Positions 20,678 through 30,633 of a DNA stretch of 64,000 nt are shown one piece after another. Each line of letters opens with the position of its first letter. The stretch's first letter is position 1. This DNA comes from a virus, in IMG/VR virus record IMGVR_UViG_3300028676_000003, positions 124,001-188,000 of that record; one strand, written 5' to 3'. The notes below the pieces were generated by a model, which saw nothing but the letters and a program-made list of their open reading frames with translations, was not told where the DNA came from and did no database searches. A program made the position numbers and the translations under genes.

Positions 20678-23512
20678 ATGTCAACAAAAGTATTTGTAAG
20701 TCCTGGGGTTTATACATCAGAAAAAGACTTAACTTTTATTACACGTCAAGTAGGGGTAACTCAACTTGGTTTGGTGGGTGAGACTACAATCGGTCCAGCT
20801 TTCCAACCAATCTTCATTAGCAACTACGGTGAATTCCAATCATTCTTTGGTGGCCTAAACGCTACTAAGGTTAAAGATACTGGTGCGCCTCAATATGAAT
20901 TACCTTATATTGCCAAATCATATTTAACTCAAGCAAATCAATTATTCGTAACAAGAGTATTAGGTTTCTCAGGTTACTATGCTGGTAAAGCATGGGGTAT
21001 TACTCTTGATGCCGCTGTAGATACTACAACCGTTGCACCTACAGGTGGAAGTAACGTAGCAAACATCATAACATACTCAACAACATCTGCTGGAACAAGT
21101 ACATTTACATCGGCTAGTCCTATTGTAACTGCGCTTTTAGCTGATAACTTGATACAAGACCAATTACAATACATTTCTTTATTGAATGTAGGTCAAACAG
21201 GTAGTGTTACAACAACATTTATTAAAACTGGAAACTCATTTACTGGTGCTTCATTCAACTATATCATTACCGCTACTGGTAGTACTGGTAGTACTTTAAC
21301 AGGTGTTGCTTCAGGTGTAACTGTAACTTATTCAGGTACAGGTTATACAGATGTTGAAAACCAATTGGTTGCGTTATTACGTTCAAGAGGTACAACAGAC
21401 TTAGCTACACAATTTCCAGCATTTGAGGTAACTGGTGCTACTGGTGTTATCTTCGACCCAGCATTTACTGATTCTGAAATGAATCCATTAGGAGATTTCT
21501 CTTTAAGTGGTTTCTCTCAAACTCAAGGTGCTTTTGATAACTTGGTATCTTTAGATAGAACTAAAAAGAATTACTTACCAAGAGTTCTTGGTAGAAGCGT
21601 TCAAAATGGTAATACACCATTATACCTTGAAGAATTCTACAACAGTATGTTCGAAGAACTTGTTGCTGAAGGAAAAGTAAGAGGACTTAAACAAACAATC
21701 GTTAGTTATAATAATGAATTCTCTGATTACCAACAACAATACTCGCCAGCGGTTACACCTTATGTTGTATCTGAGTTACGTGGTACAAAGGTGTTGAAAT
21801 TATTCAGATTCCATACAATTTCTGATGGTAATGCGGCTAATGAGCAATTCAAAATCTCATTCGTTAACATTAAACCTGATACAAGAGAGTTTGACGTAAT
21901 CATTAGAAGCTACTACGATAGTGATGCTTCACCAACAGTATTAGAAAGCTTTAGCCGTTGTACAATGGACCCAAATTCTAATAACTATATTGGTAGAAGA
22001 ATTGGTACACTTGATGGTTTATATCCTTCTAAATCAACTTACGTTCTTATAGAAATGGATGATACATCTGATACAAGTGATGCATTCCCAGCTGGTTTCA
22101 TTGGATTCCCAATTAGAGACTACCAAGAGAATAGCAACACAAGTGTTGTAGCTCCAAAATTAACATACAAAACTGCTTATGGTGCTTTTGAAAACAAACG
22201 TAAATTCTATTTAGGTTTATCTGAGACAATTGGTATTGATGCTGATTTCTTCGATTACAAAGGTGTACCACAAACAAATAATCCAAACGTTTGGACTGGA
22301 ATGACTAACGGTTTCCACATGGATATCGATGCTACTGGTGCAACAATTGACAACGTTAACGTTGTTATAAATACTTCAGGTGGAACTTACTCTCCTATAT
22401 TCTTATTCGACACAGGTGATGCTGAGTTTAGAACTGAATCAGGACTTGCTGGTGGACCATATGAAAAAATCTACGCTCGTAAATTTACATTCGCACCTTA
22501 TGGTGGATTTGATGGATGGGATGTTTACAGAACTAGAAGAAGTAATCTTGATAGCTACATAATCAATGGTACCAACGGTGCTAACGGTTTAACTTCAGGT
22601 GCATTTAGTAACAAAGCTTTATCTAATGGAGACATGGGTATTACATCTGATTACTATGCGTTTTTAGAGGCTATTTGGACATTCAGAAACCCTGAAGCGA
22701 TTAACATTAACGTGTTTGCTACACCTGGGATTGATAATTTCGATAATACTAACTTAATTGAAGATACTATCGAGATGATTGAAGAAGAAAGAGCGGATTC
22801 ACTTTACATCATGACAACACCTGATTTAAACACTGGTGGAGATGTGATGAGTGTTGAAGATGTTACTGACTATTTAGATGGTATGTACGATAGTAACTAT
22901 TCTTGTACATATTGGCCTTGGGTACAAATCAACGATACTGAAAATAACGTGTTTATCTACGTTCCACCAACAAGAGATGTTGTAAGAAATATTGCCTTAA
23001 CTGATAATGTTTCATTCCCTTGGTTTGCGGTTGCGGGTATTCAACGTGGTGATGTTGATGCGGTTCAAGCTAGAAAGAAATTAACACTTTCTGAAAGAGA
23101 TGAATTGTATGAAAACAGAATTAATCCGATTGCTACATTTACATCTGATGGTATCAAAATTTGGGGTAATAAAACACTTCAAGTTAGAGAATCTGCTCTT
23201 AATAGAATCAACGTAAGAAGACTTTTATTACAAGCAAGAAAACTTATCTCTGCTGTATCTATTAGATTGTTATTTGAACAAAATGATAACGTGGTTAGAA
23301 ACCAATTCTTATCTATAGTTACTCCTATCTTGGATAACATTAGAAGCGAAAGAGGTTTAACAGATTTCCGTGTGGTTCTTTCAAACGACCCTGAAGATAT
23401 CGACAGAAACCAATTAACTGGTCAAATATTCTTGAAACCAACAAGAGCCCTAGAATTTATTCAATTAGAGTTCGTAATCATGAATACAGGTGCTTCATTT
23501 GATAATGTATAA
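20678..23512 (+). CDS. Tail sheath protein, gp18-like
   Basis: This 944-residue protein is the contractile sheath subunit. The N-terminus TKVFVSPGVYTSEKDLTFIT is the standard start of sheath proteins, and the C-terminal 130 residues are diagnostic: IWGNKTLQVRESALNRINVR, LLLQARKLISAVSIRLLFEQ, then DNIRSERGLTDFRVVLS and a final strand. T4 gp18 has 659 residues, so this protein carries some 280 extra residues in the surface-exposed central domains (for example around 120-260, Thr/Ser/Gly-rich). The sheath wraps the tube made by the gene at 24043 and contracts on infection. It has its own late-type box and terminator, so it is a single-gene unit, as suits a very abundant protein. Confidence 0.93.
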   Translation: MSTKVFVSPGVYTSEKDLTFITRQVGVTQLGLVGETTIGPAFQPIFISNYGEFQSFFGGLNATKVKDTGAPQYELPYIAKSYLTQANQLFVTRVLGFSGYYAGKAWGITLDAAVDTTTVAPTGGSNVANIITYSTTSAGTSTFTSASPIVTALLADNLIQDQLQYISLLNVGQTGSVTTTFIKTGNSFTGASFNYIITATGSTGSTLTGVASGVTVTYSGTGYTDVENQLVALLRSRGTTDLATQFPAFEVTGATGVIFDPAFTDSEMNPLGDFSLSGFSQTQGAFDNLVSLDRTKKNYLPRVLGRSVQNGNTPLYLEEFYNSMFEELVAEGKVRGLKQTIVSYNNEFSDYQQQYSPAVTPYVVSELRGTKVLKLFRFHTISDGNAANEQFKISFVNIKPDTREFDVIIRSYYDSDASPTVLESFSRCTMDPNSNNYIGRRIGTLDGLYPSKSTYVLIEMDDTSDTSDAFPAGFIGFPIRDYQENSNTSVVAPKLTYKTAYGAFENKRKFYLGLSETIGIDADFFDYKGVPQTNNPNVWTGMTNGFHMDIDATGATIDNVNVVINTSGGTYSPIFLFDTGDAEFRTESGLAGGPYEKIYARKFTFAPYGGFDGWDVYRTRRSNLDSYIINGTNGANGLTSGAFSNKALSNGDMGITSDYYAFLEAIWTFRNPEAININVFATPGIDNFDNTNLIEDTIEMIEEERADSLYIMTTPDLNTGGDVMSVEDVTDYLDGMYDSNYSCTYWPWVQINDTENNVFIYVPPTRDVVRNIALTDNVSFPWFAVAGIQRGDVDAVQARKKLTLSERDELYENRINPIATFTSDGIKIWGNKTLQVRESALNRINVRRLLLQARKLISAVSIRLLFEQNDNVVRNQFLSIVTPILDNIRSERGLTDFRVVLSNDPEDIDRNQLTGQIFLKPTRALEFIQLEFVIMNTGASFDNV

Positions 23513-23579: not shown

Positions 23580-23981
23580 ATGTCAAAGTTAAAGATAACA
23601 CAAAAACAATATGATGCAATTATTCTTCACGAGCAAAATTCTCGTAAGGAGTTGCTTAGTGAGAATATCAAAGATTTAACATTAACAATTGCTTTGTTGA
23701 CTGGAATTAAATTAACTGGTCAAAATGAGCATACTGTTAATAATTTAATCAAAGATAAAAAAAATATGCAAGAGATGAAATCTACTCTTGAAGATGAGAA
23801 TAAGATGCAAGATTTGGTTGATGCTCTGACTGAAAAAGGTATGAAAGACCCCGAAGGTAGACTATCTAGAAATGCTGACAAGATTGTAGCTAAATTCAAC
23901 GAGATTGCAGAAAAAGAGAAATTAAACTTAAAATTAGACTTTTTAACTTCTAATAATTTAAAAAATTTAACTGATAAGTAA
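23580..23981 (+). CDS. Hypothetical protein between sheath and tube genes
   Basis: A 133-residue, highly charged and helix-rich protein with no cysteines. Its N-terminus SKLKITQKQYDAIILHEQ resembles that of the 492-residue protein encoded at 26666 (KKLKITEAQYNRLL), so the two share a short N-terminal motif despite different bodies. It has its own late-type box. Position between sheath and tube suggests a tail assembly or virion role, but no family is recognised. Confidence 0.6.
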   Translation: MSKLKITQKQYDAIILHEQNSRKELLSENIKDLTLTIALLTGIKLTGQNEHTVNNLIKDKKNMQEMKSTLEDENKMQDLVDALTEKGMKDPEGRLSRNADKIVAKFNEIAEKEKLNLKLDFLTSNNLKNLTDK

Positions 23982-24042: not shown

Positions 24043-24531
24043 ATGGCTGATTTATTGATGAAAATGCCCCTACCATACGAACCTAAGAAAAAGAATCGTT
24101 GGTTAATTACTTTCCCAGCAGACCTAGGAATCCAACAATGGTGGTTAGCTTCTGCTTCAAGACCTTCAATCACACAAAATGAGGTTGAAATTCCGTTCCT
24201 TAATACTTCTACATGGGTAATCGGTAGATTTACTTGGGAAGCTATTGATGTTACTTTCCGTGACCCAATAGGGCCATCTGCAACACAAGCTATCATGGAG
24301 TGGGTTCGTCTTCACTCTGAATCTATCACAGGTCGTCAAGGTTATGCGGCAGGTTATAAAAGACCAGTTGAACTTGAGATGCTTGACCCAACAGGTGTAG
24401 TTATTGAAAAATGGCTTCTTGATGGAACGATGCTTACAAACGTTGGATTTGGTGACTTATCTATGGATGATGATGGTATCGCTGAGATTACAGCAACTCT
24501 TAGATTTGATAGAGCAATCTTATTATTCTAA
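24043..24531 (+). CDS. Tail tube protein, gp19-like
   Basis: This 162-residue protein matches T4 gp19 (163 residues) in length and layout. It has the tube fold pattern: an N-terminal arm, RWLITFPADLG, ASASRPSITQNEVEIPFLNT (the loop that contacts the next ring), WEAIDVTFRDPIGPSATQAI, then VELEMLDPTGVVIEKWLLDG and a final GIAEITATLRFDRAIL. Hexamers stack to form the DNA channel inside the sheath. It has its own late-type box and a bidirectional terminator, again a single-gene unit. Confidence 0.92.
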   Translation: MADLLMKMPLPYEPKKKNRWLITFPADLGIQQWWLASASRPSITQNEVEIPFLNTSTWVIGRFTWEAIDVTFRDPIGPSATQAIMEWVRLHSESITGRQGYAAGYKRPVELEMLDPTGVVIEKWLLDGTMLTNVGFGDLSMDDDGIAEITATLRFDRAILLF

Positions 24532-24547
24532 TTTAAAACAAAACTTA

Positions 24548-24967
24548 TTAAAATGCCTCGTCTGAGGCATTTTTTTTGTTTATATGTGTCATTATTTGTT
24601 TTTCAATATCACGATAATCGGCCGCTTGCTGATACTCTTGCAGACTTACATGATAAATCTTAAGTTCATAGACTTGCTTATGAATTTGTAAAAGAAATTT
24701 ATATAAATCATCATGTGTTTCATACATCTTGTTTAAATCATCAATTAGTGTCTCTGTTCTGAATGGAAAAACACTAAATTCTTCAAACTTGCTTTTTTCT
24801 TTGATTATTTTGCCAATAGCCTCATTTACCTTTTTTTTACTAATTGCAAAAATACTAGAAACACTTTGAATGAAACCTTTATCAATAACTGCGATATAAC
24901 CTTCACCAACGCTTATTTTTATTTTTTCTAACTCATTAGAAATGTAGTCTTTAATAATTTCATCCAT
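24548..24967 (-). CDS. Hypothetical early protein, antisense within the tail cluster
   Basis: This 139-residue reverse-strand protein lies between tube and gp26-like genes. It is helix-rich and charged; near the C-terminus LQEYQQAADYRDIEKQI resembles the UVR helical hairpin of UvrB/UvrC and Clp-associated proteins, which mediates protein contacts. Its promoter (24971-25001) is of the early type and places transcription start at or next to the ATG. The last codons coincide with the terminator hairpin it shares with the tube gene. The name of a family cannot be given; a host take-over or regulatory role is possible because early, small, isolated genes often have one. Confidence 0.65.
   Translation of the reverse strand: MDEIIKDYISNELEKIKISVGEGYIAVIDKGFIQSVSSIFAISKKKVNEAIGKIIKEKSKFEEFSVFPFRTETLIDDLNKMYETHDDLYKFLLQIHKQVYELKIYHVSLQEYQQAADYRDIEKQIMTHINKKNASDEAF
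24553..24577. terminator. Bidirectional terminator overlapping the end of the antisense gene
   Basis: Stem ATGCCTC/GAGGCAT with loop GTCT and eight T on the forward strand, AAAA/TTTT flanks for the reverse. It lies inside the last codons of the reverse-strand gene ending at 24548, so the hairpin also encodes protein. Confidence 0.85.
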
Positions 24968-25068: not shown

Positions 25069-26334
25069 ATGGATAGAAAACCAAATGTTGTTCCAACAAA
25101 AGAACAAATAAATTCAGTTAAATCTGAAAAAGAAAAAAAAGAACTTTACGAACAAGAAAAAGCTCTAGCAACAAATGAAATCTACTCGGCTTCATTTAGA
25201 GAAGCTGAAATGCCGACAGGTCAATTATCTGCCATTGAGCAAATGCAACAACGTACAGCACATCAATTAAATCTTAACGCACAAGGAATGCAAGTTAAAG
25301 ATGAAACTTTAGCTGAAGCACCTACTTATAGTGATGTCGCAAGATTTCGTAACGAAGAACAAATGAGACTTCGTGATGTGCAATTACAACAAAATCTAGA
25401 TAATATACAAAAGTTTCAAGACCAAACCGCTGAGGCTACAGTAAGACACCAATCTTACCAAAATCAACAACAAAAACCAATCATGGAAATCGACAACGGA
25501 TATCAAAAACCACCAACTCCACCTGTAACACCAAAAAACGGTAGCATTTGGGACGACTATTCTAACCAAAGTAGTGATGAACACATCAACGAAATTAGTC
25601 AACCAAACTATAACGCTCCTTTTGATGTAATTTCATTACCATCGTTAGGAAAAACTTATAAAAATAAGAAATCTAACATCAAGTTAAGTTATATGACAAC
25701 TGCTGATGAGAACATTCTTTCAAGTCCTAACTTATTACAAAGTGGTGAGTTTCTTGAGATTCTTATCAATAGAAAAATGCTTGAACCAAGCCTTAGATAT
25801 AAGGATTTATTGCCTGGGGACAGGAACGCTATTATGATTTGGTTAAGAGCTACTGGTTACGGTGAAATGTACCCTGTTGTTATCGAAGATGAGAAAGGAA
25901 TTCCATTTGAAACTGTTGTTAATTTAGATGACTTAAAAACGGTAGAATTAACGGTTGAGCCTGATGAAAATGGACTTTTCACGTTTGATTTACCATTAGC
26001 TAGACAAACCATCAAGTTCAGATTATTAACTTGTGGTGAAATTGATTTCTTGGACAAGAAAATGGAAGAAGAAAAAGAGAATAACGTTTTAATTAACAAT
26101 TATAATACTTACAAATTAGAGAGAATGATTGTTGAAGTTGATGGGTCTAAGGATAGAACTTTTATTTCTAGCGTTGCTAACAATATGAGACTACCTGATT
26201 CAAAAAAACTAACGGAATTTATGAACACAATTGATTGTGGGATTGACTTGGATATTGTTGTTAAGACTCCTGGGGGTGGGTCTGTAGCCACCTTTCTTCC
26301 ACTTAACCTCAACTTTTTTTGGCCTAACCTCTAA
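25069..26334 (+). CDS. Baseplate hub/tail-chaperone protein, T4 gp26-like
   Basis: This 421-residue protein has a Gln/Glu-rich, probably coiled N-terminal half (1-180) and a C-terminal half of the T4 gp26 type (PF12322-like): FDVISLPSLGKTYKNKKSNI, LSYMTTADENILSSPNLLQS, LLPGDRNAIMIWLRATGYGE and a terminal strand before NLNFFWPNL. T4 gp26 (208 residues) is needed for hub assembly, lies directly before gp51, and precedes the tape-measure gene. That gene position and the out-of-frame coding extension downstream make this look like the first half of a tail-assembly chaperone pair. Ribosomes that do not shift stop at 26334, 14 nt after a run of seven T. The long N-terminal half is not present in T4. 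Confidence 0.75.
   Translation: MDRKPNVVPTKEQINSVKSEKEKKELYEQEKALATNEIYSASFREAEMPTGQLSAIEQMQQRTAHQLNLNAQGMQVKDETLAEAPTYSDVARFRNEEQMRLRDVQLQQNLDNIQKFQDQTAEATVRHQSYQNQQQKPIMEIDNGYQKPPTPPVTPKNGSIWDDYSNQSSDEHINEISQPNYNAPFDVISLPSLGKTYKNKKSNIKLSYMTTADENILSSPNLLQSGEFLEILINRKMLEPSLRYKDLLPGDRNAIMIWLRATGYGEMYPVVIEDEKGIPFETVVNLDDLKTVELTVEPDENGLFTFDLPLARQTIKFRLLTCGEIDFLDKKMEEEKENNVLINNYNTYKLERMIVEVDGSKDRTFISSVANNMRLPDSKKLTEFMNTIDCGIDLDIVVKTPGGGSVATFLPLNLNFFWPNL
26314..26320 (+). promoter_or_regulatory. Candidate programmed frameshift site (C TTT TTT T)
   Basis: The gp26-like frame reads AAC TTT TTT TGG up to a stop 14 nt later. The frame that encodes the gp51-like part continues ... TTT GGC CTA ACC TCT AAT TAT. 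Moving from the first to the second requires a -2 or +1 shift in the T run; a -1 shift meets TAA after two codons. The region of overlap in the second frame is open only from 26288. Confidence 0.6.
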
Positions 26335-26599
26335 TTATAAAGTTCCGTTACTAGAAGAAATTTATATTTGCACACAATATTTAAAAGGTTTTACGTATAA
26401 TGATGTTTTAAGTATGCCTGTTTATGAAAGAAGATTCTTTTTAGGGTTATTGAATAAAGAAAACTTTGAAAAACAGGAAAAAATTGAAGAAATGAAGGAG
26501 CAAAGTAAAACTACTGGCTCAAAAGGTACTAGAACAACCAAAATCAGCGGACAGAATCTTAAAAATAGGATGAACAACGGTGATTTACCATTATCATAA
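26321..26599 (+). CDS. gp51-like frameshift extension of the gp26-like gene
   Basis: The frame is open from 26288 to 26599 but has no ATG, GTG or TTG before 26414. The part upstream of that ATG clearly encodes protein of the same family as what follows: VPLLEEIYICTQYLKGFTYN, DVLSMPVYERRFFLGLL, then a charged helix. The pattern E-I-(6-9 residues)-G-F-T-Y-x-x-V-x-x-MPVYERRF belongs to the second half of contractile-tail chaperones (T4 gp51). Starting at the internal Met (26414) would remove half of it. The product is therefore best explained as a fusion to the upstream protein made by ribosomal frameshifting at 26314-26320, 92 extra residues. Alternatives are start at a rare codon (ATT at 26360 or 26366) or a sequencing/assembly error in the T run. 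Confidence 0.65.
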   Translation, partial: GLTSNYKVPLLEEIYICTQYLKGFTYNDVLSMPVYERRFFLGLLNKENFEKQEKIEEMKEQSKTTGSKGTRTTKISGQNLKNRMNNGDLPLS

Positions 26600-26604
26600 C
26601 TAAA

Positions 26605-26632
26605 AATGCCCGCAGAAATGTGGGTATTTTTT
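26605..26632 (+). terminator. Rho-independent terminator with GAAA tetraloop
   Basis: Stem AATGCCCGCA/TGTGGGTATT (two G-T pairs) closed by a GAAA tetraloop, followed by T residues. It ends the chaperone-like unit. Confidence 0.75.
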
Positions 26633-26642
26633 ATTTAATATG

Positions 26643-26650
26643 ATATTTAT
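26643..26650 (+). promoter_or_regulatory. Late-type promoter box ATATTTAT
   Basis: TGATATTTATAAACAAAG, 15 nt before the ATG at 26666 and just after the preceding terminator. Confidence 0.55.
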
Positions 26651-26665
26651 AAACAAAGATTAATC

Positions 26666-28144
26666 ATGAATAATAAAAAACTTAAGATAACTGAAGCACA
26701 ATACAATAGACTACTACAGTTTATTGTTGAAACTCCTTTTGACACAATGGTTAAACAAAGTATCGATATAGGTGATGTTGTTTCTATTAATTGGAAAGGT
26801 AGTAAGAATAATTTCAAGGTAATTGATAATTCAGGTGGGCAAATCATTATGGATAACATCGATAAAGGTTCAACCAACATCAACAATAGATACTTCATGA
26901 GCTTTACATCGTTGAATGGTGATGACCTAGAGATGAGAAAGGTAAACAAGGTTAAAGAACCTGAAAAACTTAACGATATCAAGTCATGGTCACCAGTAAC
27001 TGTTAAAGATATTTCAAACATACAAATCTTCAGAGACGGTGAATTAATTGATACGGTTGACCCAGTTTCTCCTACTGCTGAAAAACAACAAAAAAATGGT
27101 CCAAAACCTGATACAAACACAGATAATAACCCAAGTCCTGACTTCATGAATGAGGTTAATAACGACTTGGCTATTATTCTTGAACAATTGGAAAAAGGAA
27201 AAGGAATCAATTTTATATTTAATTCAGGGTTTATTAATTTCTGTTGCTTAGATAGAGTTGATTCTACATTTATCTTAGAAATTAATGAAGAACAAAATAC
27301 AATCATCGATAGTCTTAATAAATGGGACACCTTCATTTTGGATATCAAGGGTAATCCTCAAACAGATAACCTATATCTTAAAAACAAAGACATTGTTTCA
27401 ACTAATGATGGAGTAACTTATAACCTTAAATTCAAGGTTTCAGCTGGAAATACACACAAAGAGACTGTTATAAAAGCAATCAAAGGTGTTAGTGTTTTGA
27501 GCTCTTGTGATACAACTGAAGAAGATGAAGATGAGAAACCTGAAGTAAATGGCCCTGAAGAACAGAAAGCGGATGCTGAAAAGGCACTACAAATGATTCT
27601 TAAGGATAAAGATTTACAAGATGCGTTTTATAAACAACCTGGATTTTGGGAGATGTTTAAAGCTGAACTTTCAGGTGAAAAAGCTGTTGGTACTGGTATA
27701 ATTACCGTATTAGACGTTATGCGTAAAGTAACTGAATCTAGACTTGTTAAAAAGGTAGGTAAAGGGTTTAATGTTGGTAAAAAAGCCAAGTTTATTCCTA
27801 TTGAAAACGTTAACGTTAAGTATCGTGATGATAAAGATATAATCCATAATTATGACCTTCCAATGGTTGAAGATATGATTACGGTTAGAAGACACCTTAT
27901 CGATGATGTTAGTCAAGTTTTACAAAAAAGAGTTGAGGGTGGAAATGGACTAATTCTAAGAATCCTAGTTAAAGACCAAACAGACGAACCAAATATCAAG
28001 AATTGTGATGTTCAGATTGGTATTAAAAATAAAAGCGATAAATTCGTTGAGAAGGGACAAACATCAGATGTTAACATAAAATTCTTAAATTCAGAAGGTT
28101 ATGAAGCACAAGTTCAACAACCACAAACACAAAATACTAACTAA
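26666..28144 (+). CDS. Virion-associated protein of unknown function
   Basis: This 492-residue protein precedes the tape measure gene and overlaps it by one base (TAATG), so the two are coupled. Its N-terminus (KKLKITEAQYNRLLQF) shares the short LKITxxQY motif with the protein at 23580. Residues 30-70 look like a small beta barrel (VVSINWKGSKNNFKVIDNSG), followed by a linker rich in Pro, Asp and Asn and by an acidic stretch (DTTEEDEDEKPEVNGPEEQK) near residue 290. The C-terminal 170 residues are mixed alpha/beta. No catalytic motif is seen. A role in baseplate hub or tape measure assembly is inferred from position only. Confidence 0.6.
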   Translation: MNNKKLKITEAQYNRLLQFIVETPFDTMVKQSIDIGDVVSINWKGSKNNFKVIDNSGGQIIMDNIDKGSTNINNRYFMSFTSLNGDDLEMRKVNKVKEPEKLNDIKSWSPVTVKDISNIQIFRDGELIDTVDPVSPTAEKQQKNGPKPDTNTDNNPSPDFMNEVNNDLAIILEQLEKGKGINFIFNSGFINFCCLDRVDSTFILEINEEQNTIIDSLNKWDTFILDIKGNPQTDNLYLKNKDIVSTNDGVTYNLKFKVSAGNTHKETVIKAIKGVSVLSSCDTTEEDEDEKPEVNGPEEQKADAEKALQMILKDKDLQDAFYKQPGFWEMFKAELSGEKAVGTGIITVLDVMRKVTESRLVKKVGKGFNVGKKAKFIPIENVNVKYRDDKDIIHNYDLPMVEDMITVRRHLIDDVSQVLQKRVEGGNGLILRILVKDQTDEPNIKNCDVQIGIKNKSDKFVEKGQTSDVNIKFLNSEGYEAQVQQPQTQNTN

Positions 28145-30633
28145 TGGCAGATACATCAAATATGAGTCAAGACGAGTTAAATGCGCATAACAGATTAGTC
28201 GCAGAGGCTCTTAAACTCGCAAAACAAGAAGCTAGATATAGAAAAGAAGTTAGCACCAGTCTTGCTGATTATTTAGCTGGTGTTGAGAAGGCAAATAAGA
28301 TGAAAAAAACTTATAATGCCAACTTAAAAATTCAATCTAAATTTGAGAAAGAATTAGAAAAAGCACAGCAAGATAATGATGCTCAAGCTATTCTTAATGC
28401 TCAAGTTAAGCTAGACCTTATAAAGAAACAAAATAAAGAACTTAAGAAACAACAAGAAGCTCTAGAAGACGCTTTGGCAACTGTTAATAAGACTTCTATG
28501 GTTACTGCCAAGTTAGGTGCTGAAGCTTTAAAAGGTATCGCAAAGCTTGCAACAAACATCCCAGGTCTTATCACCAAGGGTTACGGTCAAATCAAGAGTG
28601 CTGGTTTATTCGATATGGATAAAGCCATTAAGCAATCAGGTTTAAGTATGGGTCTTTTATCTAAACAAACTAGTGATTATAGAGCTAATATTACTGCGGC
28701 CGCTAAAAGAACAACTACCTTTGGTATTGGAATTGAAGAACTTGCTCAAATGCAAGCTAGTTATTCTGAAGAATTAGGTAGAGCTGTTGTTTTAACTGAA
28801 CAAGAAAGCGTTGCTATGGCTAAGATTGCCGCTGATGCTCAATTGAGTACCGAAGCAATGGGTCAAATGACTGCTGAATTAGATAGACAAGGTGTTTCTG
28901 CTGAAAGAACTGCTGACTATATTCACAAGGTTATGGAAGACACCCATAAAATGGGTCTTAATTCATCTAAGGTTATTAAGAATATCAATGCTAATTTCAA
29001 GATGCTTAATAGATATAACTTCAAAAATGGAGTTGATGGACTAGCTAAAATGGCCCAAACAGTATCTAAATTAGGTGTTTCTATGGAATTTGCCGCTGGT
29101 TTTGCAGATAAGTTATGGGATGTTGAAGGAGCTGTTGATATGTCTGCACAATTACAAGTATTAGGTGGTGAATGGTCTAAGTTAGCGGACCCATTCAAGC
29201 TTATGTATCAAGCTCGTAATGATATTGAAGGATTGACTGAAGAATTAGGTAAAGCCGCATCGGCTTCTGCTCACTTGAATAAAAAAGGTGAAATAGAAAT
29301 TGCCGCTGTTGAAATGCATAAATTAAAAATCATTGCTCAACAAACTGGTGTTGCATATGATGAGTTAGCTCAAGCTGGTAAAAATGCATTCAAGTTGAAT
29401 AAGATTAAAGGTCAAGTTCAATTCCAAATGTCTGATGAAGAAAAAGAATTCCTTACAAATCAAGCTCACTTAGATAAAGACGGAAAAGCCTATATCGTAG
29501 TTAAAGGTGATAAGAAATTCCTTGGACAATTAGGAGCTAATGCTCAAAGTATTGTTAAGGCCCAAATGGAAGAACAAAAAGCTATGGGTGAAAGAGCTAA
29601 GGATGCTCAAACATTTGATGAGGCGTTGAATAATACAATCAACGGTATGAAGGTTTATTTGCTTCCAATCATTACAGCTATAAACGAAAAATTACTTCCT
29701 AAATTGAAAGATTTTGGTGATAGATTCGAAAACGAAAAATGGGGTGATAAAATAGAGAAATTTGCTGGTATTGTTGGTGACTTGGTTACTACCATCGGTG
29801 GATTTATTATTGATAACCCAATCAAAACTGGTCTTATTTATCTTACAACTAAATTAGGTGGTTTCCTTATGGATAAAGCTACTTGGTTTAGTAATGGTCT
29901 TATACTTGCACAAGGATTTAACGCTGGGTCTGCTGGTGGTGGAGCCGCAAGTGCTGTAGCTGGTGGTGTCGGTAAATTTGCTAAGTTAGGTAAGTTTGCT
30001 AAGATTGGTGGTGGTGTAATTGCCGCTGGTGCTAGTGGATATGATGAATGGACAACCAATAAAGAAAATGGAGTTGAAGCTGGTGAAAACGCTGGCCGTA
30101 CTGCTATTAGAGCAGGGGGTGCTGGTTTAGGAGCATGGGGTGGTGCGGCCGCAGGTGCCGCATTGGGTTCTGTTGTTCCAGTTATCGGTACAGTTGTTGG
30201 TGGGATTATTGGTGGTATCTTAGGTGGACTTGCTGGTGATAAACTAGGTGATATGGGTGGTGATGCCGCTTATGGTGTTCACGATGGTAAATTCCCTGCA
30301 ATTGGTAAGAACTTAGGTAGCGATTTTTCTCAAGGTAGAGGAATTATTCAAGGTGGAAAAATTACACCTATTGATAATAAAGATGACCTTATGGCAATGA
30401 AACGTGGTGGTCCAGTCGATAATGCGTTGAGAGATGGTGGTGGAAGTGTGAACACTACTAGAGTTGATTTTGGTTCTATTACAATCAATGGTGAAATCTT
30501 GATTAAATCTCCTGGAAGTCCAGGTATGTCTGAAGACCTTATGAAGGACCCTTCATTTAGACGTGATATCACAAGAACAATCCAAGTTGAATTAGAGAAA
30601 AATAAAATTGGTGGAAAAAATAAAGGTCAATAA
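28144..30633 (+). CDS. Tape measure protein
   Basis: This 829-residue protein begins with a long charged coiled-coil region (about residues 15-120), continues with Ala-rich helices, and contains a hydrophobic Gly/Ala-rich segment in the C-terminal third (about 600-720), including GGAAAGAALGSVVPVIGTVV. This is the layout of tape measure proteins, which set tail length, occupy the tube and are released into the host envelope. Order gp26-like, gp51-like, unknown, tape measure mirrors the T4 order 26-51-27-28-29. T4 gp29 has 590 residues. The following gene is separated by a 281-nt A+T-rich gap. Confidence 0.75.
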   Translation: MADTSNMSQDELNAHNRLVAEALKLAKQEARYRKEVSTSLADYLAGVEKANKMKKTYNANLKIQSKFEKELEKAQQDNDAQAILNAQVKLDLIKKQNKELKKQQEALEDALATVNKTSMVTAKLGAEALKGIAKLATNIPGLITKGYGQIKSAGLFDMDKAIKQSGLSMGLLSKQTSDYRANITAAAKRTTTFGIGIEELAQMQASYSEELGRAVVLTEQESVAMAKIAADAQLSTEAMGQMTAELDRQGVSAERTADYIHKVMEDTHKMGLNSSKVIKNINANFKMLNRYNFKNGVDGLAKMAQTVSKLGVSMEFAAGFADKLWDVEGAVDMSAQLQVLGGEWSKLADPFKLMYQARNDIEGLTEELGKAASASAHLNKKGEIEIAAVEMHKLKIIAQQTGVAYDELAQAGKNAFKLNKIKGQVQFQMSDEEKEFLTNQAHLDKDGKAYIVVKGDKKFLGQLGANAQSIVKAQMEEQKAMGERAKDAQTFDEALNNTINGMKVYLLPIITAINEKLLPKLKDFGDRFENEKWGDKIEKFAGIVGDLVTTIGGFIIDNPIKTGLIYLTTKLGGFLMDKATWFSNGLILAQGFNAGSAGGGAASAVAGGVGKFAKLGKFAKIGGGVIAAGASGYDEWTTNKENGVEAGENAGRTAIRAGGAGLGAWGGAAAGAALGSVVPVIGTVVGGIIGGILGGLAGDKLGDMGGDAAYGVHDGKFPAIGKNLGSDFSQGRGIIQGGKITPIDNKDDLMAMKRGGPVDNALRDGGGSVNTTRVDFGSITINGEILIKSPGSPGMSEDLMKDPSFRRDITRTIQVELEKNKIGGKNKGQ

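Follow-up and report, generated by a model that had tools for sequence, protein, structure and literature searches.

A programmed frameshift, probably +1, predicted to join gp26-like and gp51-like tail chaperone halves in a very large phage

How is a gp51-like reading frame that lacks a usable start codon expressed from within the tail gene cluster of a very large phage? The window analysed here is a 64,000-nucleotide stretch (positions 124,001 to 188,000) of the 368.5 kb virus record IMGVR_UViG_3300028676_000003, and in it a gp26-like frame (ORF A, 421 aa, ending with the TAA at 26332–26334) is overlapped near its 3′ end by a second frame (ORF B) whose first ATG, GTG or TTG is the ATG at 26414. 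A preliminary description of this DNA had proposed that the two frames encode halves of a tail chaperone that are joined by a programmed frameshift of +1 or −2, rather than −1, at a run of seven T in the overlap. Its account of the gp26-like stop at 26334, the overlapping frame open from 26288 to 26599 and the lack of a start codon before 26414 agrees with the sequence, and the T run occupies exactly 26314–26320 as it said. The features of the locus and the evidence for each are as follows:

20678–23512, + strand: tail sheath protein (phrog_23 tail sheath, E=1.2e-58)
24043–24531, + strand: tail tube protein (phrog_4542 tail tube, E=2.6e-25)
25069–26334, + strand: ORF A, putative gp26-like short tail assembly chaperone (TAC-N; ORF list, phrog_150, predicted fold)
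26285–26287, + strand: TAG stop in frame B, which fixes the 5′ limit of the shift (sequence)
26288–26599, + strand: ORF B, open frame without a usable start (sequence, hhalign, coding-type variation)
26293–26310, + strand: subclade-specific 5′ element TTTCTTCC-N-CTTAAC-NTC (frozen at synonymous sites)
26314–26322, + strand: putative shift site TTT_TTT_TGG in frame A (T7GG invariant in 55/55 close loci)
26666–28144, + strand: 492-aa ORF between the chaperone and tape measure genes (Pfam and PHROG searches)
28144–30633, + strand: tape measure protein, the expected chaperone client (phrog_167 tail length tape measure protein, E=7.7e-18)

Frame A reads AAC TTT TTT TGG CCT AAC CTC TAA through the site, and the −1 frame past the T run is TTG GCC TAA, so that a −1 shift stops at once, as had been noted. 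T runs of seven or more occur 14 times on the + strand of the window, and TTTTTTTGG is present once, at the shift site. The part of B translated after a shift would be 26321–26599 (92 aa plus the stop), a gp51-like C-terminal extension (TAC-C). The preliminary description gave the fusion as 92 residues longer than A; 92 codons of B do follow the shift, but the residues WPNL at the end of A are lost, and the net gain is 88 residues for +1 or 89 for −2. The conserved core of ORF A (about 25606–26322) matches phrog_150 with E=3.7e-9 and is preceded by a Q-rich N-terminal extension. This extension (25069–25605) is about 180 residues long, and T4 gp26 has none like it.

Related loci keep both the T run and the frame relation. 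A scan found 54 close loci with the B frame, 45–100% identical over B, and in these and the window (55/55) B lies in the same (+1/−2) frame relative to A and TTTTTTTGG is in codon phase 0. A query built from aligned gp26-like cores found more distant loci (relatives 28–67% identical), and B was located in them with an HMM of B on all three frames (E<0.01); it lies in the +1/−2 frame in 78 of 82, in −1 in one, and is weak in three. The same relation is present in all 16 loci from cellular assemblies and in 137 of 139 further loci. No relative with a single continuous frame was found: B is never in frame 0 to A among the close, distant, cellular-assembly or further loci. Isolated phages with this arrangement include Flavobacterium phage immuto, Microcystis phage Mel-JY01, Listeria LIS04, Streptococcus GXN1 and the Bacillus SP-15 and Rhodothermus RM378 phages. 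A +1/−2 version in a T4-like phage had been thought unusual. Other T4-like groups use −1, but among the window's own relatives the arrangement is the rule and not an oddity.

In the close loci synonymous sites along A are ordinary (observed/expected ~1.0), and those in its last 20 codons are frozen (1.46 and 1.38). Outside the overlap B has a mismatch of 0.47 at third positions versus 0.17 at second positions and a median dN/dS of 0.16; it evolves there as a coding sequence under purifying selection. A programmed frameshift that would produce a long tail chaperone is near certain from this comparative evidence, and the proposal of a +1 or −2 rather than a −1 shift has held up in a frame relation kept by hundreds of relatives.

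What would the fused protein be? The conceptual A+B fusion matches phrog_150 (baseplate hub; the T4 gp26/gp51 family) with 45.8 bits (E=1e-11), and A alone with 37.4 bits; residues 8–286 of the fusion align with positions 9–280 of the 282-position profile, across the junction, whereas the alignment of A alone ends at profile position 219. Of the fused relatives compared (62), phrog_150 is matched by 60 and PF12322 (T4_baseplate) by 49; the window member itself has no match to PF12322. T4 gp26 and gp51 are paralogues (BLASTP 2e-6), and T4 gp51 is the N-domain fused to an extra C-terminal stretch that it has in common with short cyanophage gp51 via phrog_634. When the B family was compared by hhalign it scored 97% with the gp51 of the −1 group (below) and 82% with the T4 gp51 C-terminus, with column-shuffled controls below 1%, a comparison that identifies ORF B as a homologue of the T4 gp51 C-terminal extension. 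Because the fusion matches the gp26/gp51 family and B is homologous to the gp51 extension, A would be the short form of the tail assembly chaperone, with A+B as its long form, in line with the gp26-like and gp51-like halves and the chaperone role first proposed. Set against four T4-type gp51 proteins in a plain profile comparison, the fused family gave a weak N-domain match only; the link to gp51 is carried by the PHROG and Pfam matches and the C-terminal comparison. The A core was modelled with AlphaFold (pLDDT 91); the model resembles predicted structures of hub and hub assembly proteins from T4-like baseplates, and no relative was found among solved structures. Likeness in sequence to the lambda gpG/gpGT and P2 E/E′ chaperones was limited to a sub-threshold NCBIfam match (NF047426, E=0.0086).

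We consider it probable that A and B belong to a single tail assembly chaperone locus, comparable to lambda gpG/gpGT but with a +1 shift, a chaperone function being suggested by homology and gene position. The tail tube gene lies upstream; the tape measure gene follows downstream, set apart from B by one additional ORF, and this separation (by ORF 26666–28144, which has 0 Pfam matches and PHROG matches at chance level only) counts against the proposal. Most ribosomes would stop at the end of A and release the short, gp26-like chaperone. We infer that in cells a minority, with tRNA-Phe on UUU 26317–26319 and the UGG codon waiting, would slip forward one base in the P site, so that the tRNA re-pairs with UUU 26318–26320, the next codon is GGC 26321–26323, and reading goes on GGC-CUA-ACC in frame B to give the long, gp51-like form. 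The two products would be expected to cover the tape measure protein and bring in tube subunits.

In which direction, then, would the ribosome slip? In loci with a pure T7 run, including the window, re-pairing after a −2 slip is on paper as good as after a +1 slip, and the variant sites bear on the choice. Among 273 distinct loci (13 of them −1 references) the site is TTT_TTT_TGG in 209, TTT_TTT_TAY in 17, TTC_TTT_TGG in 14 and TTT_CTT_TGG in 14, and parsimony indicates that the TTC form was gained at least 12 times and the CTT form at least five times, with B still in frame. In TTC_TTT the −2 target becomes UCU, with a mismatch in the middle and no homopolymer, while the UUU_U needed for +1 is kept; because only the needs of +1 re-pairing are kept in the TTC_TTT_TGG and TTT_CTT_TGG variants, the direction is most likely +1. 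The bases fixed in nearly all of 255 junctions (non-deduplicated) are the two U's that end the P-site codon and the U that follows, and these are the bases required for a tRNA reading UUU or CUU to slip by +1. The P-site codon can re-pair one base downstream (UUU_U or CUU_U), as at RF2-type sites, and re-pairing two bases upstream in all members, as would be expected of a Mu-type site, fails at TTC_TTT_TGG. Two further sites, TTC_TTT_CGT in GXN1 and TTT_CTA_TTC in LR756508, re-pair by +1 only. CUU_U is the documented RF2-type +1 slip (PMC10885494), and UUU_CGU is the proven +1 site of PA-X (PMC3498833).

Some observations do not fit +1 so well. The first TTT is kept more strictly than a +1 slip at the second codon would require: TTC takes its place in 2 of 116 cases where TTC makes up 20% of Phe codons and in 12 of 139 further loci where it makes up about one third, and the A-site codon GGC is rare in the window's phage (0.9 per 1000 versus 8.4 for TGG), which is the reverse of the hungry-codon pattern. 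Both points would suit a −2 slip of the kind known from phage Mu (PMC5009743), in which tRNA-Phe would move from UUU 26317–26319 to UUU 26315–26317, with perfect re-pairing in the window's T7 run, and the common codon UUU would be re-read in the A site before GGC. Set against the repeated gains of the TTC and CTT forms and the GXN1 and LR756508 sites, such a slip is nonetheless unlikely.

The +1 frame would also be reached if RNA polymerase lost one U or added two in the homopolymer run, giving a mixed mRNA pool. Loci with TTC_TTT or TTT_CTT, however, have runs of at most four T yet keep B, and a longer run (T8) is avoided, not favoured: T stands directly before the run in 2 of 101 codons where 61 (sd 4.6) were expected, and in a second set in 10 of 120 where 56 were expected. 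A T at this place would make the −1 heptamer U_UUU_UUU, and the deficit is as expected if −1 shifting is selected against; its scarcity thus points to avoidance of −1 and argues against slippage in the transcript, which we regard as very unlikely. In the window C precedes the run (AAC_TTT_TTT) and B is not in −1, unlike a canonical −1 site (X_XXY_YYZ with B in −1).

Another possibility is that B is a separate protein, made with no shift by reinitiation or from a non-standard start near the A stop, for which the TAATG overlaps of some distant relatives (Cygsa01 and LR756511, below) and the annotation of cyanophage gp51 from an ATG just past the gp26 stop are precedents. Internal initiation of B was rejected on its start-codon content: 17 of 39 distinct close loci have no ATG, GTG or TTG in frame B ahead of its conserved part. 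Conservation of B moreover begins at the slip site, the synonymous freezing of A is limited to the last 20 codons around that site, and T4 gp51 has the N-domain fused to the same extension, all of which makes a separately started B hardly credible. Homopolymers are error-prone, but a sequencing or assembly error (the seven-T miscount raised at the outset) or gene decay has a negligible chance of explaining the locus, because the same count and phase recur in the 55 loci, in hundreds of divergent loci and across many assemblies, the GenBank phages Mel-JY01 and RM378 agree, and the frame, the TTTTTTTGG phase, the synonymous freezing and the coding-type variation of B under purifying selection are all kept.

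Are there stimulators of the proposed +1 shift? No 3′ stem-loop or pseudoknot was found at the site (z=+0.34), no Shine-Dalgarno-like stretch lies within about 25 nt upstream (26293–26313 has no purine-rich stretch), and Rfam gave nothing above chance; the A site is UGG and not a stop codon. RNAalifold proposes only a UUUCUUC/GAAGAAA pairing around the slip site, without two-sided changes, and Glu codons force the purines at GAAGAAA. At synonymous sites the 5′ element TTTCTTCC-N-CTTAAC-NTC shows little or no variation across the window and loci L012–L065; it is confined to the window's subclade and absent from the wider family. The frame-A wobble positions that are frozen in it coincide with second codon positions of frame B, and it could pair with the downstream GAAGAAA, with no covariation seen. 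The element could be a stimulator, a second UUU_C slip site or a case of dual coding. The upstream UUU_CUU (26293–26298) was rejected as the main slip site, since the wider family lacks it and keeps only TTT_TTT_TGG; it may serve as an auxiliary slip site.

T4 gp26 (short) and gp51 (long) have the same N-domain (phrog_150, PF12322) and the same C-terminal extension in short and long forms as the predicted products here, but T4 makes them from two divergently placed genes with no shift, whereas the window has one locus with a +1/−2 overlap. A T4-like −1 group (cyanophages, phiAS5/Aeh1 type, VmeM-32, Rhizobium LG08/RL38J1, PA5oct, RaK2 and XacN1) has the same gene pair and the same Phe-Phe position at the end of gp26; there a T precedes the run (T_TTT_TTY heptamer) and B is in −1, whereas the window's family has B in +1 and avoids a T at that place. 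All 58 distinct cyanophage and phiAS5-type junctions carry the canonical −1 heptamer in the form NNT_TTT_TTC, gp51 following in the −1 frame, and −1 sites are also present in VmeM-32, LG08, RL38J1, S13, PA5oct, RaK2, fEgEco12 and XacN1. One 324 kb contig (L091, 3125–3202) has GAT_TTT_TTT_TTC with B in −1 and nests, with support 99, in a 35-row clade that includes the window's relatives; the shift direction thus appears to have changed at this very position, where a T stands ahead of the run.

Lambda gpG/gpGT and P2 E/E′ resemble the window in that a short and a long chaperone come from one locus beside the tape measure gene, but they differ in using a −1 shift on canonical sites. The tail chaperone of Mu arrives in the same resulting frame by −2, whereas the variants found here fit +1. 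At the RF2 (prfB, CUU_UGA) and influenza PA-X (UUU_CGU) sites the P-site tRNA moves from CUU or UUU one base onward, as proposed here, and the family has UUU_CGU in GXN1 and CUU_UGG in 14 loci; unlike them, the window has UGG in place of a stop codon, no adjacent Shine-Dalgarno sequence, and the site in a phage structural gene.

Parts of this picture have already been published. A 2016 review named T4 as an exception to tail-chaperone frameshifting and considered +1 very likely for the tail chaperone of one archaeal virus, HSTV-2 (PMC5009743). T4-like tail chaperone genes were identified by Vladimirov, Gautam and Davidson (Virology 2022), as cited in PMC10885494 and PMC12846349; according to the former some T4-like phages have separate short and long chaperone genes, and according to the latter T4-like TAC-N genes are known to carry poly-T signals for −1. 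As represented in these papers, the role of gp26/gp51 as tail chaperones, a −1 shift in part of the T4-like phages and T4's pair of separate genes are thus prior knowledge. No report of a +1 T4-like group was found in the searchable literature, the 2022 study being represented there by the papers that cite it, and the +1 family with its UUU_UUU_UGG signal appears from these comparisons to be new. We give somewhat less than an even chance to a broader reading, that it represents a so far undescribed class of bacterial +1 signal, in which slippage on a sense codon ([U/C]UU_UGG_CC) would proceed without a stop codon, Shine-Dalgarno sequence or 3′ structure and into a rare codon, in a very large contractile-tail phage family. 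In that reading at least one lineage (L091) went back to −1, together with a T ahead of the run, and the window's subclade has UUUCUUCC as an additional 5′ element.

The gp26/gp51 family would thereby reach the same short/long pair in three ways, by a −1 shift, by a +1 shift and by separate genes. A handful of bases about a single Phe-Phe pair apparently decides the direction, which makes it testable with simple reporters, and the family is a large natural data set for the requirements of a +1 signal. GenBank annotation can also be corrected: in immuto, LIS04, SP-15 and VmeM-32 the long form is absent, or a fragment of B is given as a small hypothetical ORF.

Several smaller observations concern relatives and neighbouring genes. 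Cyanophages keep T_TTT_TTC in all distinct loci though TTC is only about 17% of their Phe codons, and their gp51 has an ATG two bases past the gp26 stop; they may thus make both fused and free gp51. A TAATG overlap joins gp26 and gp51, with no slippery site, in Pseudomonas phage Cygsa01 (L076, 2809) and in LR756511 (L426, 3262), which suggests coupling instead; such phages may have one more mode of expressing the two proteins, or may have lost the fused product. Between the tail tube and chaperone genes of the window lies a 139-aa ORF (24548–24967, − strand) without a confident family match. The ORFs at 23580–23981 and 26666–28144 have a KLKIT..QY N-terminal stretch in common, and the DNA around the start of the latter (26627–26678) is repeated elsewhere in the same genome (G000:C1:236982–237032) with 81% identity; together these suggest a possible repeated leader sequence.
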